Virus record (IMG/VR): IMGVR_UViG_3300023296_000703
Coordinates: 1-20,187 of that record
Source of the DNA: a virus
Reading direction: 5' to 3' (one strand)
Length of the DNA stretch: 20,187 nucleotides
Shown here: in pieces, positions 9,603 to 16,046 of the stretch
How positions within the stretch are numbered: the first letter of the stretch is position 1
Layout of the letters: each line of letters starts with the position of its first letter
Program-made: the position numbers and the translations under genes
The notes under the pieces: model-generated
The model's database searches: none
What the model saw: the letters and a program-made list of their open reading frames with translations, nothing else
Told to the model about the DNA's origin: nothing

Positions 9603-9966
9603 TCTTACCCTTTACCCATTGAATTAATGGAATGTTCACGGGCTGGCCTCCTGTGGTGTGATCCGTATAAGTCATTGCTAAACGTTTCCTTTCGTCATCA
9701 GTACAAATCAGCTTCATTAATGCCAATTGTAAAGCGGGCGCGGTTGATTTATACCACTTTGACCGCATGGAAGACTTTATTTCAATCTTATTAATATCTA
9801 ACAAGTCTTTTAGTTCGTTACTTTCGTCACCATTAATAGGGAAATACTCATAATAGGTTTTCTTTGCAATCGGCAAAAATGCCACTACGTCTTCAATAAA
9901 AAATAACTTTCTCTTGAGTATTTCGGCCTTAGCCAGTTCGAATATTTTAGTTTTGTCGTATGCCAT
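9586..9966 (-). CDS. terS: terminase small subunit
   Basis: The 126-residue protein lies immediately before terL and overlaps it. The helical N-terminal half (TKIFELAKAEILKRK, IEDVVAFLPIAKKTYYEYFP) has the spacing of a helix-turn-helix DNA-recognition unit; a central helix-rich part (LKDLLDINKIEIKSSMRSKWY) suits oligomerisation, and ALQLALMKLICTDDERKRLA is a segment often seen in Bacteroidota phage small terminases. It would recognise the packaging site and load TerL. The gene overlaps the upstream methyltransferase fusion by 20 bases. Confidence 0.85.
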   Translation of the reverse strand: MAYDKTKIFELAKAEILKRKLFFIEDVVAFLPIAKKTYYEYFPINGDESNELKDLLDINKIEIKSSMRSKWYKSTAPALQLALMKLICTDDERKRLAMTYTDHTTGGQPVNIPLIQWVKGKNDKDR

Positions 9967-11104
9967 TGAGTTTGATTATTAAAGTAGGATCTAACGCCTT
10001 CATTCTATTTACAATTACATCACAATACTTTGGGTCGAGTTCCATGCCATAACACTTTCTTTTTAATTGGTGTGATGCTACCATTGTTGAGCCTGAACCA
10101 AGAAATAAATCCACTATAAACTCTCCTTTAAATTTATTTAACAAAATATTAAGCATGCCAATAGGTTTCATTGTTGGATGCGGCTTTATTCCGTTGACCT
10201 TATCTACCATTCTGTTTGCCCAACTCACATATTCGTATCTAAGTATCTCTCTTTTCACTTTCCTTTTACTAAAAATAGTTTCAAATGCAGAACCTATTAT
10301 TTTATCATACCTTTCTTCCACTCTTTTATCCCATATAATCCAACTACCTTCATTTTTTTTGGGAATATAATCTGAGTAATAATCAGCACCAAATAATACT
10401 ATATCATCGCAGTAGTTAAATAATGAAAATATAATAGATGGGTCAAATTGCTTGTCGTCATTTTCTATATTATCGTGTTTTCTACCGGGTTTTATTGTAT
10501 TGCTTCCCATTTTGGAAAAATCAGCATCTAAAAACATCCCATAAGGCGGATCAGTAAAAACCATATCAGCTTTCTCTTCATTCATTAACTTTGCAACGGT
10601 ATCGCTGCAAGTTGAATCACCGCACAACAAACGATGTTCTCCAATCTCGTAAAGGTCGCCTAATACCGTTATCGGTATATTTGGAGGTGTTGTATCAAAA
10701 TTATCCTCTTCTGCTTCTAGTTTTTTAACTCCAAAATCTGGAATATCCAAACCCCATTCCTCCAATTCCTCGCTATTCCATTCATCCTTTAGTTGTTCCC
10801 AATTCCATTCACCAAATGAGGCATTGTCTTTTATAAGAAATTCGGCCTTTTGCTCTTGAGTCCAATCGTCTGCAAGCAATACGGGTAATTTAGCGATTTT
10901 AAGCTCTTTTGCTGCCTTTAGCCTCATATTACCACCCAATACAATTAGTTTTCCGTCAACGTCAGTAAAACAGACCAGCGGCCTCTTTCTAAGCATATCA
11001 GGGAAGGACTCTAATGACCTTTTTAGCTTATCAAACTTTTCATCTTTTATAATCCTCGGATTGTTAGGATTCGGCTTTATTCGGTTTATGTCAACTTCTT
11101 CCAT
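9947..11104 (-). CDS. ParB-like nuclease domain fused to beta-type DNA methyltransferase
   Basis: I start at ATG 11104 (MEEVDINRIKPNPNNPR); a TTG 15 bases upstream would add five residues. The 385-residue protein has an N-terminal ParB/Srx-like domain (about 3-90) with KPNPNNPR and VLGGNMRLKAAKEL. A linker follows, then an amino-methyltransferase with LLCGDST (159-165), TDPPYG (184-189), HPTMKP (309-314) and VDLFLGSGSTMVA (331-343). DPPY precedes FLGSGST, the circular order of the beta class, giving N4-cytosine or N6-adenine methylation. Such fusions are common near terminases. It overlaps terS by 20 bases. Likely roles are protection from host restriction or marking DNA before packaging; no cognate nuclease is seen. 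Confidence 0.92.
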   Translation of the reverse strand: MEEVDINRIKPNPNNPRIIKDEKFDKLKRSLESFPDMLRKRPLVCFTDVDGKLIVLGGNMRLKAAKELKIAKLPVLLADDWTQEQKAEFLIKDNASFGEWNWEQLKDEWNSEELEEWGLDIPDFGVKKLEAEEDNFDTTPPNIPITVLGDLYEIGEHRLLCGDSTCSDTVAKLMNEEKADMVFTDPPYGMFLDADFSKMGSNTIKPGRKHDNIENDDKQFDPSIIFSLFNYCDDIVLFGADYYSDYIPKKNEGSWIIWDKRVEERYDKIIGSAFETIFSKRKVKREILRYEYVSWANRMVDKVNGIKPHPTMKPIGMLNILLNKFKGEFIVDLFLGSGSTMVASHQLKRKCYGMELDPKYCDVIVNRMKALDPTLIIKLNGIRQN

Positions 11105-11146
11105 AATAGTATTTATCAATTTTCAAATCCACCACCGATTTAGGTC

Positions 11147-11723: not shown

Positions 11724-11924
11724 TTAATCCTCATCCCCAATCGCATCAAAAAAGGCGGTTTCGATTTCTTTCATATCCCAATCTAGTATTTCAATCTGTC
11801 TAATCTCAAATCTTGGCTCATCCATCGGCTGATCTCTATCCGTTGACCGTTCAGGGATATTATATTCAGCTGTTAGTTGCAAGTAGATATTACCGATTTT
11901 GATTATTTTGGTTGCTGTTTTCAT
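11724..11924 (-). CDS. small acidic protein downstream of the iteron region
   Basis: The 66-residue product begins with a strand-rich part (TATKIIKIGNIYLQLTAEYNIP), then a polar loop rich in acidic and proline residues (ERSTDRDQPMDEPRFE), and ends in an acidic helix (DMKEIETAFFDAIGDED). I do not recognise it. It is the first gene after the iteron-rich region and lies behind a good promoter match (11962-11992), so it may be an early or regulated product. Small acidic phage proteins often bind host proteins, but nothing here proves it. Confidence 0.6.
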   Translation of the reverse strand: MKTATKIIKIGNIYLQLTAEYNIPERSTDRDQPMDEPRFEIRQIEILDWDMKEIETAFFDAIGDED

Positions 11925-11961
11925 TTTCGTGTCGTTTAGTTCCCTATTTATTTAAGTTAAG

Positions 11962-11992
11962 CAAATATAATATACTTAAAAGTACCAATCAA
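11962..11992 (-). promoter_or_regulatory. Bacteroidota-type promoter at the edge of the iteron region
   Basis: On the minus strand TATATTTG (11969-11962) matches the -7 consensus TAnnTTTG exactly; TTGA (11992-11989) lies 19 bases upstream in the -33 position as a partial match. The predicted start is about 30 bases before the ATG at 11924. A 12-bp element (TTAAAAGTACCA at 11976-11987) lies between the two boxes, so a protein binding there could control it. Confidence 0.5.
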
Positions 11993-12089
11993 GTGAATGG
12001 ACATATTTATTTTTAACGATTGGAATTTTATGGTTTTCAATCGTTAAAAGCGTTAAAAGCGATGATTATCAATTGGTTACGGGTCATAT

Positions 12090-12118
12090 TTTTAACGGTT
12101 TTAACGATTTTAACGATT
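12090..12118 (+). repeat. tandem 9-bp iterons (TTTTAACGR x3)
   Basis: Three copies of TTTTAACGG/A follow each other at an exact 9-base period and end in a further TT. This is the densest part of the iteron field; a second closely spaced pair at 12254-12275 has an 11-base period. The near-helical spacing would place bound proteins on almost the same DNA face. Confidence 0.7.
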
Positions 12119-12123
12119 TTCCC

Positions 12124-12172
12124 TATATGTTGTTTGTATTTAGAGCGTTTTTTCATTTTTGAACAACATATA
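12124..12172. repeat. 11-bp inverted repeat inside the iteron region
   Basis: TATATGTTGTT (12124-12134) and AACAACATATA (12162-12172) are perfect complements separated by 27 bases. The spacer is AT-rich. It could extrude as a hairpin or bind a dimeric protein. It is not followed by a T run, so a terminator is unlikely. Confidence 0.55.
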
Positions 12173-12326
12173 TAGAATGTTAAAAAAAGGGCTTAATCGT
12201 TAAAATGGTTAAAAGTACCATTTTTAAGAACTGAATATCAAGGTTTTAAGAGGTTTTAACGATTTTTTAACGATTGACTTTCTTGAAATAATGATTAAAA
12301 TCGTTAAAACCTTTAAAAATACTATT

Positions 12327-13763
12327 TTAAAACGGTAATTCTTCTTTCTTTTCATCCGTTCCGTTTAGCTCTGTTTTCAATACAATTCTTTTATTTCCAT
12401 ACCCTGAAATTATTTCTTTCCCAACTGATTCAAGGTATTTTGAAAACTTTATTTTAGACTGTTGAAACGCTCCCGTTACATCGCAATATTGGGCATAATC
12501 GGCATATAAAAAGCTGTAATCAATGTTTTCAGTCGATTCTAATACCCTTTCATCATACCATGCCGAAACGCTGTTTAGCTCGTTTTTGTACTTTTGTACT
12601 TCTTGCTTAACGATTTCAGGAGCGTGTAATCCGCTTTCTTTAAATCGAATAAAACCCTCTACACACCAATTCAAAATACCTGACAATTCACCCTTAAAAT
12701 CATTCATTACGTCTTCGGTCTTTCGGATGGTGTCCTTAGAAAATTTATATTCGAAAGGTATCAAATGAACCCTCCTCCAAATGCCATGATCATCACCTTT
12801 TATAATTGGCTTATGATTTCCGAACATCCAAAGCTTGTGAGTTGGCTCAAAATCGAACGGATCTCCATAAATTCGACGTGCCGAAATGGTATCGCCTCCA
12901 GTCAAATCTTTAATCAAGGCTTCGTTTAATTTCTTTCCTTCTGGTATTTCGGATGATAAAACAAGCCTACTGCCTTTCAGGTTTGCAATATTATAATCCG
13001 TTCCCGTTTGGTTTTTTGTCAATAAAGAATCAACGGGAAAGGACTGATAATAATCTTGAAACACTAATTTTATCGTATTGAAAAACGTGCTTTTGCCGTT
13101 TGCTCCCTGACCATAACAAAAGAAAAAACCTTGAAAATCCTTTAGTCCAGACATAGAATAGCCAACGGCTGTTTGAATGTATTTTATTAGCTCGCCATTA
13201 CCTTGAAAAATAGTGTTCAAAAACTCATCCCATTTAGGGCATTTTGCTTTAGTGTCGTAATCTGTCGTGGGTGTTTTTGAAATCATGTATGACGGAGAAT
13301 GAGGCGTAAAACTTATATCGGATAAGTCAATTACACCATTACCACAAATAAACAAAAACGGATTTTTGTCAAATATGCCCTCATGTGCTGGCAGTTCTGA
13401 GGTAGCCAATTCCATCACATTATCAATATAGGACTTAAAACCAAGGGATTTCAATGCGTTTTGCGTTTCATCTAACATCGGTTTTATCATCTTTTTATCC
13501 TCCTTTGTGGCGTTTTCAAACATTTCATCCACTCGTAAATATTCATCCTCCACTATTTGCGATAATTCAGCAGAAATATATTTTCTTACCTGTTTCATTT
13601 GATCGCTTTTCCAGTAGCCATTTTGGTAATAATGCCAAACTTTATTCGTGTGATTGTAAATAAAATCATGCGAAAAAAGTTCTTTACATAGCTTCGACAA
13701 ACCTCTTTGACCATCTTTTATATAGTCTTGTGGGTTAATTTGCTTCTTTTTGCTTTTTATCAT
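12327..13763 (-). CDS. D5-type SF3 replicative helicase
   Basis: The 478-residue protein carries a D5_N-type N-terminal part and a superfamily 3 helicase domain. Walker A is YGQGANGKSTF (GQGANGKS at 218-225); the Walker B-like LVLSSEIPEG has E272; the sensor block LWMFGNHKP has N316; the arginine finger lies in GIWRRVHLIPFE (R330/R331). SF3 helicases unwind phage DNA at replication origins. At this length there is no room for a full primase domain at the N-terminus, so a primase must come from elsewhere or from the host. It ends KKEELPF, like an SSB C-terminal tip. Its start overlaps the preceding gene by 29 bases, and the iteron region follows it. Confidence 0.9.
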   Translation of the reverse strand: MIKSKKKQINPQDYIKDGQRGLSKLCKELFSHDFIYNHTNKVWHYYQNGYWKSDQMKQVRKYISAELSQIVEDEYLRVDEMFENATKEDKKMIKPMLDETQNALKSLGFKSYIDNVMELATSELPAHEGIFDKNPFLFICGNGVIDLSDISFTPHSPSYMISKTPTTDYDTKAKCPKWDEFLNTIFQGNGELIKYIQTAVGYSMSGLKDFQGFFFCYGQGANGKSTFFNTIKLVFQDYYQSFPVDSLLTKNQTGTDYNIANLKGSRLVLSSEIPEGKKLNEALIKDLTGGDTISARRIYGDPFDFEPTHKLWMFGNHKPIIKGDDHGIWRRVHLIPFEYKFSKDTIRKTEDVMNDFKGELSGILNWCVEGFIRFKESGLHAPEIVKQEVQKYKNELNSVSAWYDERVLESTENIDYSFLYADYAQYCDVTGAFQQSKIKFSKYLESVGKEIISGYGNKRIVLKTELNGTDEKKEELPF

Positions 13764-14046
13764 AGTAGGCTTTCATGATTTCAGGTTCAATAATATTTTT
13801 CTCAGACAATATCCATTTTTGCCATTGTTCAACCGCTATAATTTTGGCCTTGGTATTGATTGCCTCCATTCTTAAAACGGTTGCATAGGTTCTAATCGAA
13901 TCAATAGACCTGACAAGCTTATTAATTTGGCTTTCCTTTTGCTTTTTTTGGTGGTAATCTAAGGTTTTTAATCTTTCATCCTCCAACTCTGAAATTACAT
14001 TAAGAATGTCGCTTTCCGCAATGATGTATTCATTAGGAACTCTCAT
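13735..14046 (-). CDS. helical (coiled-coil-like) protein of the replication operon
   Basis: The 103-residue product is almost wholly helical: ESDILNVISELEDERLKTLD then QKKQKESQINKLVRSIDSIR, with further heptad-like leucines and isoleucines and a charged C-terminus (EIMKAYYDKKQKEAN). No enzymatic motif is visible. It starts at an ATGA overlap with the 56-residue HTH-like gene and overlaps the helicase start by 29 bases, so it is co-translated with replication proteins and may act as helicase loader or partner. That role is inference from position only. Confidence 0.65.
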   Translation of the reverse strand: MRVPNEYIIAESDILNVISELEDERLKTLDYHQKKQKESQINKLVRSIDSIRTYATVLRMEAINTKAKIIAVEQWQKWILSEKNIIEPEIMKAYYDKKQKEAN

Positions 14047-14213
14047 TCTTTTATCAATTCACTTTTGTAAAGCGATTCAATTAATGACCACTCCGATTTC
14101 TTCCAATTGTCTTTCTTAATTCGCTTGTCAAGTAACGGCCTTGAAATTTCTAGCTGGTCGCAAACCCAAGATTTTGAGTGCTTTCCAATGAGGTAGTATA
14201 TTTTATTTTCCAT
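14043..14213 (-). CDS. 56-residue HTH-like protein (paralog of 14846-15013)
   Basis: A 56-codon frame from ATG 14213 reads MENKIYYLIGKHSKSWVCDQ and continues LEISRPLLDKRIKKDNWKKS. The pattern (helix, KSWVCDQLEISRPLLDKRI as probable helix-turn-helix, then NWKKSEWSLIESL helix) suggests a small Cro/Xis-like DNA-binding protein. It is a clear relative of the 55-residue product at 14846-15013, sharing YY-IG--SK-W, L-I and NWK-SE with near-identical spacing. Its stop overlaps the start of the next gene (ATGA). The upstream DNA holds AATGTAA elements and palindromes, consistent with self-regulation. Confidence 0.75.
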   Translation of the reverse strand: MENKIYYLIGKHSKSWVCDQLEISRPLLDKRIKKDNWKKSEWSLIESLYKSELIKE

Positions 14214-14324: not shown

Positions 14325-14846
14325 TTAATTTGCGTTCATCCCATCCATTACCTCTAAAAAATCATCCAATGTCTTTACTACATAGCATTCAGCATAGCCC
14401 GCTTGAATAAAGTCCTTTTGATCCTGCGATAATTTGTCTTTACCTATCTTGACCTCAAAGTAAATCGTGTGCAACGGCATCGGCCTCATTACTTTTATAT
14501 CGAGTTCGCCTCTTTGCTTTGATCCGTCCTGTGCATATGCCAGTATGCCAATAACTTCACCGGCCCGATTACCTCCAATTATTCGATTCGGTACGGTCTT
14601 GCCTGTGGTATTAACCTTTAGGGCTTTCCAAGTTGGATAAGTTCGATTGATATATTTCAAAATAAACGCTTCGAGCCATTTCGAAAGATATTCACGGTGT
14701 GCCGTATTTTTGTAGACACCGTCAACGGATAGCTTTGACCGTTCAGGAACTTTCTGGCTGCACCGATACCAAATATTAGCCCATTCGTACGCCTCGATGG
14801 AAGCGATTCGAGAAAGTTTCTTTTGATTGAATTGCGCTTGAGTCAT
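14325..14846 (-). CDS. VRR-NUC-type nuclease
   Basis: The 173-residue protein ends in a small PD-(D/E)xK nuclease of VRR-NUC type: RGELDIKVM (D116), then the strand IYFEVKIGKDKLSQDQKDFI with E131, K133 and Q143, then AGYAECYVVKTLDDFLEV. The D-x14-E-x-K spacing is what this fold requires. The N-terminal 100 residues are mostly helical and less typical. Phage VRR-NUC proteins are thought to cut branched or structured DNA during replication and packaging. It lies between the two paralogous HTH-like genes, with a one-base start/stop overlap upstream (TAATG), a GGAGG motif nearby, and a terminator after it. Confidence 0.82.
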   Translation of the reverse strand: MTQAQFNQKKLSRIASIEAYEWANIWYRCSQKVPERSKLSVDGVYKNTAHREYLSKWLEAFILKYINRTYPTWKALKVNTTGKTVPNRIIGGNRAGEVIGILAYAQDGSKQRGELDIKVMRPMPLHTIYFEVKIGKDKLSQDQKDFIQAGYAECYVVKTLDDFLEVMDGMNAN

Positions 14847-15013
14847 TACCCTACCTCCAGAAACAACTTATCAATCATCATCTCCTCCGATTCCTTCCAG
14901 TTCATAGCCTGTAATTTTATTTCGAATGTCATGTGATTGATTTGCAGCCTACCAAATAGCCACTTTTTAGACTTTCGGCCGATGATGTAATAGACTTTCT
15001 GTTTTATATTCAT
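14846..15013 (-). CDS. 55-residue HTH-like protein (paralog of 14043-14213)
   Basis: A 55-codon frame from ATG 15013 reads MNIKQKVYYIIGRKSKKWLF and continues to MNWKESEEMMIDKLFLEVG. It shares YY-IG--SK-W, L-I and NWK-SE with the 56-residue product further on, with near-identical spacing, and is likewise predicted to be a small helix-turn-helix DNA-binding protein. A GGAGG motif before the next gene and a TAATG overlap couple it to the VRR-NUC gene. AATGTAA elements lie upstream. A promoter match ends only a few bases before its ATG, so the message may be leaderless or the start may be at an internal ATG. Confidence 0.7.
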   Translation of the reverse strand: MNIKQKVYYIIGRKSKKWLFGRLQINHMTFEIKLQAMNWKESEEMMIDKLFLEVG

Positions 15014-15016
15014 ATA

Positions 15017-15046
15017 CAAATGTAAGATAATTAAATGTAAAGCAAA
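15017..15046 (-). promoter_or_regulatory. promoter and operator-like elements upstream of the 55-residue gene
   Basis: On the minus strand TTTG (15046-15043) and TACATTTG (15024-15017) match the Bacteroidota promoter boxes with an 18-base gap, slightly short. On the plus strand AATGTAA occurs at 15019-15025 and 15034-15040, the same element as upstream of the paralogous gene. One copy overlaps the -7 box, so a protein bound there could block transcription. Confidence 0.45.
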
Positions 15047-15096: not shown

Positions 15097-15345
15097 TTAA
15101 AATGGTAAATCGTAATCATTCGTGACGGCTGCTGGAGCGGGTGGCCTCGGTGCTGCATCCTCCTTCAATTTAGTGGTGAAATTGAGCCTACTCGAACCGT
15201 CAGGGTTCTTGTTAACCCAAGCATCTACCCAATATTCCAATCCGTCTGAATGGGTGTAAGTGCCTTTATAATTCGGGTGCTTGTCAGTCTCTTTTTTCTT
15301 GTTCAGAAATAGGACTCCCTTTAATTCATTGTTGTAATCTGGCAT
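15097..15345 (-). CDS. small protein with SSB-like acidic C-terminal tip
   Basis: The 82-residue product starts MPDYNNELKGVLFLNKKKET and continues NYKGTYTHSDGLEYWVDAWV, a strand-rich layout that recurs in small Bacteroidota phage proteins of DNA-metabolism neighbourhoods. After a Pro/Ala-rich linker (APRPPAPAAV) it ends NDYDLPF, which closely resembles the acidic D-D-I-P-F tip by which bacterial SSB recruits replication and repair proteins. I infer a compact ssDNA-binding or SSB-mimic role, but the body is too short for a standard SSB OB-fold. It is the last gene before a terminator. Confidence 0.55.
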   Translation of the reverse strand: MPDYNNELKGVLFLNKKKETDKHPNYKGTYTHSDGLEYWVDAWVNKNPDGSSRLNFTTKLKEDAAPRPPAPAAVTNDYDLPF

Positions 15346-15631: not shown

Positions 15632-15735
15632 GCCGTTGATAGTTTAGTGTTTAATATCTTCAGTTGTTCCCGAATGTACATGCCCCATTCATTGAATGAT
15701 AGGCGGGTGTCTGGTTGCGTTGTTTTCATTTTCAT
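15628..15735 (-). CDS. 35-residue unknown peptide
   Basis: From ATG 15735 the frame reads MKMKTTQPDTRLSFNEWGMY and ends IREQLKILNTKLSTA. It is helical and amphipathic near its end. A second ATG two codons on is an equally good start. Its stop overlaps the start of the 28-residue gene (ATGA), and it lies directly after the HTH-like gene at 15741-16046. No family is recognised; support comes from coupling and position. Confidence 0.5.
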   Translation of the reverse strand: MKMKTTQPDTRLSFNEWGMYIREQLKILNTKLSTA

Positions 15736-15740
15736 GTCAG

Positions 15741-16046
15741 TTAGTAGTTTTGTTTCGCTCCTTCATTAATAATTTCTTCCATTATCAGCATTGATTTTGC
15801 CCATTTTGGGAAAGGTTTTGATGGGCATAGCTGATTGTAAACACTTGCTGGTTTAAATCCCATTTTCTTAGCGAAGTCTTCTGTTGAAAGGGAAAGGCTT
15901 TCCAAAAGAGAATTGAATTTTTGCTTTTGAGTTTTCCCTTCATTAGATTTTTGATTAATACTTATTTCAGAAATACTTAACGCTAATTCGCTTACGCTTG
16001 CCGTTAATAATTCTAGTTTTTTTGTAAGGCTTTGTACATTTTCCAT
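15741..16046 (-). CDS. HTH-like protein with N-terminal coiled coil
   Basis: The 101-residue protein begins with a leucine/serine heptad stretch (MENVQSLTKKLELLTASVSE and following) that could dimerise, then a lysine/glutamine-rich linker (NQKSNEGKTQKQK). The second half, FNSLLESLSLSTEDFAKKMG and KPASVYNQL, has the spacing of a phage Cro/CI-like helix-turn-helix, with STEDFAKKMGFKPASVYNQL spanning the turn. A DNA-binding early regulator is likely. It follows the 88-residue unknown gene and is followed by two tiny genes. The start has an A-rich leader (AATAAACAACAAAATG). Confidence 0.65.
   Translation of the reverse strand: MENVQSLTKKLELLTASVSELALSISEISINQKSNEGKTQKQKFNSLLESLSLSTEDFAKKMGFKPASVYNQLCPSKPFPKWAKSMLIMEEIINEGAKQNY

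Follow-up and report, generated by a model that had tools for sequence, protein, structure and literature searches.

The window, by which we mean the whole stretch of DNA that was analysed, is a 20,187-base IMG/VR virus record in which every evident gene is oriented leftward. Its early block, encoding an SSB-like protein and a helicase, is followed by a repeat array, a gene for a ParB_N domain fused to a DNA methyltransferase (9947–11119), and then the large terminase and structural genes; several of these gene names were assigned by eye from the sequences. The large terminase, portal and capsid genes, recognized by eye and with matches found for the terminase, set the element apart from PICI satellites, which possess no structural module of their own. 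The terminase matches include Riemerella and Cellulophaga phages and, together with a promoter-like sequence at the array edge, suggest a Bacteroidota host. The features of the locus are as follows.

11962–11992, minus strand: promoter-like sequence TTG-N20-TATATTTG at the array edge, pointing toward the leftward-running packaging and structural genes; we take it to be of Bacteroidota type from general knowledge of the consensus
12011–12021, plus strand: iteron cluster 1, outermost on the left, a single exact TTTTAACGATT
12039–12058, minus strand: iteron cluster 2, a pair of copies with 9-bp spacing, one of them exact and the other with a single mismatch
12090–12118, plus strand: iteron cluster 3, innermost on the left, a run of three copies with a 9-bp period
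12119–12177, no strand: AT-rich center, candidate melting site or hairpin, with a 16-nt inverted repeat (12119–12134 / 12162–12177)
12195–12214, minus strand: iteron cluster 4, innermost on the right, a pair of copies with 9-bp spacing
12254–12275, plus strand: iteron cluster 5, a pair of exact copies with 11-bp spacing
12290–12318, minus strand: iteron cluster 6, outermost on the right, an exact copy between two degenerate ones, 9-bp period
12327–13763, minus strand: SF3/D5-type helicase gene, proposed initiator, 478 residues, D5_N and DUF5906 domains
12366–12572, minus strand: helicase C-terminal winged-helix domain (residues 398–466, AlphaFold2 model), proposed iteron reader
12381–12413, minus strand: wing hairpin (residues 451–461, loop GYGNK), equivalent to the iteron-tracking position in relatives

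The array occupies a 402-bp gap that separates the stop codon of the helicase gene at 12327 from the ORF that follows it leftward (11724–11924), and it ends at 12318, 8 bases from that stop and hence immediately 3′ of the helicase gene. At 25.6% GC, relative to 36.8% for the window, the gap is AT-rich, as the earlier note had described it. Eight exact copies of TTTTAACGATT begin at 12011+, 12039−, 12099+, 12108+, 12195−, 12254+, 12265+ and 12299−; three more carry one mismatch (12048−, 12090+, 12204−) and two carry two mismatches (12290−, 12308−). Exact and one-mismatch copies span 12011–12318, the exact ones 12011–12309. The count of about nine strong copies with four in the complementary orientation, given in the earlier note, is thereby revised to eight exact and three near-exact copies, five of the eleven complementary, while the 9-base period at 12090–12118 and the 11-base spacing at 12254–12275 were both recovered as claimed. 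A search of all 20,187 bases, in a record that may be a fragment, found no exact copy outside the array. The contention that such density is unlikely by chance was borne out by 2000 dinucleotide-preserving shuffles of the 402-bp stretch: its 8-mer repeat content is 69 (shuffle mean 7.9, maximum 27), and the eight exact copies compare with a shuffle mean of 0.01 and a maximum of 1.

The six clusters alternate in orientation and form a mirror image about a point near 12150, such that iterons flank the AT-rich region on both sides. Folded as single-stranded DNA, 12110–12200 is more stable than all 200 of 200 shuffles (z = −3.06); an Rfam search returned no match. A CCCTATA...TATAGGG-like palindrome with a G-run after it often lies between the two iteron sets, in the 3′ flanks of L089, L092, L096 and L100 and in the window center, and is a possible second conserved origin element. 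GC skew, proposed earlier as a check, is negative on both sides of the array with no switch and thus lends the origin no support, in a possibly fragmentary record whose genes all point one way.

The 402-bp stretch is identical in L001 and L003, a pair of metagenomic contigs that closely match the window. Between the window and L001 (9.5 kb), 24 of 25 differences fall inside the helicase gene (12627–13362), are mostly silent and are tightly clustered, with seven in the 36 bp at 12627–12662; this looks like patchy recombination. A further contig (IMGVR_UViG_3300022859_000015; our L022, L002 and L031) has an early module 99.8% identical to that of the window and a large terminase only 71% identical, which by sequence makes it a mosaic phage; it stops within the helicase, beside the expected array site. 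Elsewhere in the window, a stretch of about 33 bases recurs at 85% identity around the start codons of two genes (11909–11941 and 15712–15745).

The helicase possesses a Walker A motif (GQGANGKST) and matches D5_N (PF08706, E = 7e-26) and DUF5906, placing it among the SF3/D5-type enzymes. Its profile retrieves the SaPI5 primase-helicase (7ola, E = 5e-34), ASFV C962R and vaccinia D5, and its AlphaFold2 model (mean pLDDT 89.5) matches the D5-family helicases ASFV PrimPol and mpox E5. The C-terminal winged helix is apparent in the model, with helices at residues 416–430 and 437–446 and the wing at 451–461. The helicase and the SSB-like 82-residue protein end in similar acidic -LPF tails, EELPF (12327–12344) and DYDLPF (15097–15114), that recall the C-terminal tips of SSB proteins.

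To place the array among relatives, we scanned with a helicase alignment and obtained 80 viral and 10 genomic loci, in most of which repeats peak in the stretch just 3′ of the helicase when the entire locus is considered. Dereplication at 85% identity left 29 testable helicase lineages, for which 350-bp windows were compared. The 350 bp 3′ of the helicase outscored every other window in 19 of the 29 lineages and reached at least the 95th percentile in 20, the stretch studied here having the top repeat score of all; the 5′ flank scored 0–10. Dominant periods are most often 9 and 10 bp, and the iterons usually occur in both orientations. Their sequences are wholly different between lineages (CCGGAAATG, TGCGGCAAA, GGTAGATAG, GCGAGGGTT, TTGCGATAG, TTTGCACCA, CTGACAGTT, GGACCACAT, GTTATCGGA and others). 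Comparison of relatives, which the earlier note had called for, thus reveals the same position and architecture with other sequences in most helicase lineages. The contrary case that it had named, relatives with the same helicase and no iterons, does not describe the majority, but about one third of lineages show weak arrays or nothing: five lineages (L054, L057, L058, L060, L067) have no clear array 3′ of the helicase, and four others (L035, L114, L115, L118) fall below the cut, with short or degenerate arrays visible by eye in some. The array-after-helicase rule is therefore not universal. Comparable arrays also follow the primase genes of Listeria PSA and Lactobacillus T25.

In relatives the array stays with the helicase while the next gene varies, encoding for example a RusA-like protein, VRR-NUC or a small terminase (the RusA and small-terminase labels were assigned by eye). 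The nearest terminase relatives with upstream sequence, L024 and L026, have no comparable array; L026 carries another ATPase, RecA/DnaB-like, at that place, which is consistent with the array belonging with the SF3 helicase. At the DNA level, a search of the phages collection left the array sequence unmatched. A DNA-pattern search for TTTTAACGATT found, beyond the relatives of the window, only contigs holding two or three copies each in contexts unlike this one; the sequence of the motif is therefore not common to other phages. Among these hits, two unrelated contigs of 47–49% GC (L015, 855–920; L017, 6528–6590) hold three non-coding copies in both orientations, followed in L017 by a tRNA-like sequence.

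We then asked which protein reads the iterons. Four iteron types were first seen among 14 near-identical primase-helicases; with L045 and with L134, the one new member from a further scan of the helicase family, the set comprises 16. Of 158 variable columns, column 788 alone sorts all four types: Asn accompanies TGCGGGAAA, Lys TGCCGGAAA, Ser TGCGGCAAA and Ile TGCAGGAAA. None of 5000 label shuffles equalled this column. Relatedness does not enter into these shuffles, but over the remainder of the protein the sequences fall into other groups: L042 and L050, which have different iterons, differ at eight positions in the last 60 residues and at three elsewhere. Within the last 75 codons, fully type-consistent sites make up 5 of 34 amino-acid-changing codons and 0 of 43 silent ones (p = 0.014); for the last 24 codons only, the contrast (5 of 23 against 0 of 8) is not significant. 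Hitch-hiking of the helicase C-terminus with a physically linked array is disfavored by these sequence comparisons.

A similar link, involving the same hairpin, is present in an alphaproteobacterial family. There, wings with GR[IV] accompany CGATAG/CGACAG iterons, GR[AT] accompanies CACCAG, and SG[IV]VLY accompanies TGACAG; R[VI]R[RK]Y accompanies GAGGGT in L093 and L112 and also in the distant helicase L087. Several of these loci contain minority copies of another iteron type. In a truncated model of the L042 helicase, used for the C-terminal domain only (pLDDT ~85, the rest poor), residue 788 is at the tip of the wing, where a loop joins the two strands that follow the recognition helix. Helicases aside, the structure that this model matches best is the DNA-binding domain of RFX1 (1dp7, TM 0.70 on target, E = 0.004). 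The wing of RFX1 is known to read bases, and a wing that reads iterons would fit this match. The covariation, observed in relatives about 24–36% identical to the window helicase, whose own lineage has one iteron type, points to the helicase C-terminal winged helix as the likely iteron reader. A literature search of limited coverage found no earlier account of the wing/iteron correspondence.

Taken together, a model for the locus emerges in which the array would be the site where a tailed phage, probably one that infects Bacteroidota, starts its replication, with the SF3/D5 helicase recognizing iterons 3′ of its own gene; we assign this reading a probability of roughly 0.8. The arrays after most related helicases and the annotated origin of the Streptococcus thermophilus phage Sfi21 support the candidate phage origin proposed in the earlier note, as a putative function. 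Helicase monomers would use the C-terminal winged helix to bind CGTTAAAA-core sites, two oppositely facing hexamers would assemble on the mirrored clusters, and the hexamers could melt the AT-rich center at 12119–12177 and then move apart as replicative helicases.

An alternative is that the array plays no part in replication and is an operator field through which a phage regulator controls the promoter at 11962–11992, and with it the packaging and structural genes that run leftward from there. A good TTG-N20-TATATTTG promoter does lie at the left array edge, upstream of a 66-residue ORF, and iterons and operators may overlap. We nonetheless consider this explanation improbable: i) the arrays of relatives stay with the helicase gene while the following gene changes, ii) at least eight copies mirrored over 300 bp exceed most operators, iii) the corresponding array of Sfi21 is an annotated origin, and iv) iteron type tracks a helicase residue.

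The array could also be an origin read by another protein that loads the helicase, either the 103-residue partner (13735–14046) or the twin 56- and 57-residue proteins (14043–14213 and 14846–15019), which flank a nuclease-like gene and are 35% identical to each other. Their genes lie just upstream of that for the helicase, and many phages use a separate initiator. Searches of Pfam and PHROG returned no match for any of them, and the contigs in which the 103-residue protein turned up were all near-identical, in contrast to the widespread placement of an array after the helicase; with iteron type tracking the helicase wing in two families, a separate reader seems unlikely. On the initiator, for which the earlier note had listed the helicase, the partner and the twins, the evidence from relatives thus favors the helicase, through its C-terminal winged helix. 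That the array is instead a centromere-like partition site bound by the ParB_N-methyltransferase fusion is scarcely credible, for although centromeres are often repeat arrays and the fusion has a ParB_N domain, that domain is joined to a DNA methyltransferase, and the array adjoins the helicase gene rather than the fusion gene, other genes following it in the relatives examined.

Returning to the helicase-read origin, co-diversification of iteron sequence and wing would stop related replicons from cross-firing. We lean, with less assurance, towards a broader proposal: mirrored-iteron origins may be a general design of SF3-helicase tailed phages, in which an RFX-like wing tip largely sets specificity, giving a readable protein-to-DNA code as origins and helicases co-diversify. 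For many uncultured phages, inspection of the DNA directly 3′ of the SF3 helicase gene could then be enough to find the origin without any data beyond the sequence. How a self-loading helicase chooses its own origin over that of a rival also becomes testable, with near-identical helicases that differ in the wing-tip residue and in their iterons.

Several known systems resemble the locus. Closest in layout is the 302-bp non-coding origin of Sfi21, also the phage-inhibitory element PER, which lies directly 3′ of a putative primase/helicase gene and bears repeats in both orientations, two forward and two reverse copies of TTAGTTAC, that surround an AT-rich core. Its iterons differ in sequence from ours and are fewer, its host is Gram-positive, and its status as an origin is published (PMC6356513), whereas we infer that of the window. 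In PICI/SaPI origins, too, the array is immediately 3′ of the initiator gene, and the C-terminal domain of SaPI Rep recognizes iterons directly downstream of its own gene (PMC7581432); in contrast to those satellites, the window belongs to a tailed phage that encodes terminase, portal and capsid proteins itself. Two mirrored iteron sets after the helicase have been described as unique to PICIs and occur here in phages and prophages as well. SCCmec Cch2 is likewise a D5-type helicase with repeats 3′ of its gene, and its isolated C-terminal domain binds these downstream direct repeats (PMC7581432), the mode of binding proposed here, although Cch2 has only three iterons and belongs to a different element. 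The Sulfolobus plasmid pRN1 also has an essential non-coding region 3′ of its primase-SF3-winged-helix protein; that region holds a large stem-loop and no iterons, whereas the window has iterons flanking a smaller hairpin-capable center. Satellite phage P4 uses two separate sites, ori and crr, in contrast to the single array (12011–12309) in this 20-kb, possibly incomplete record. P4 alpha is an SF3 helicase whose C-terminal winged helix binds origin repeats (cited in PMC4234260); it carries a Toprim primase, whereas the window helicase stands alone. An origin of this kind is therefore already known from Sfi21, PICI/SaPI, P4 and Cch2, and the more interesting part lies in the wing/iteron correspondence and in the occurrence of this layout in tailed phages outside PICIs, for which Sfi21 is the precedent.
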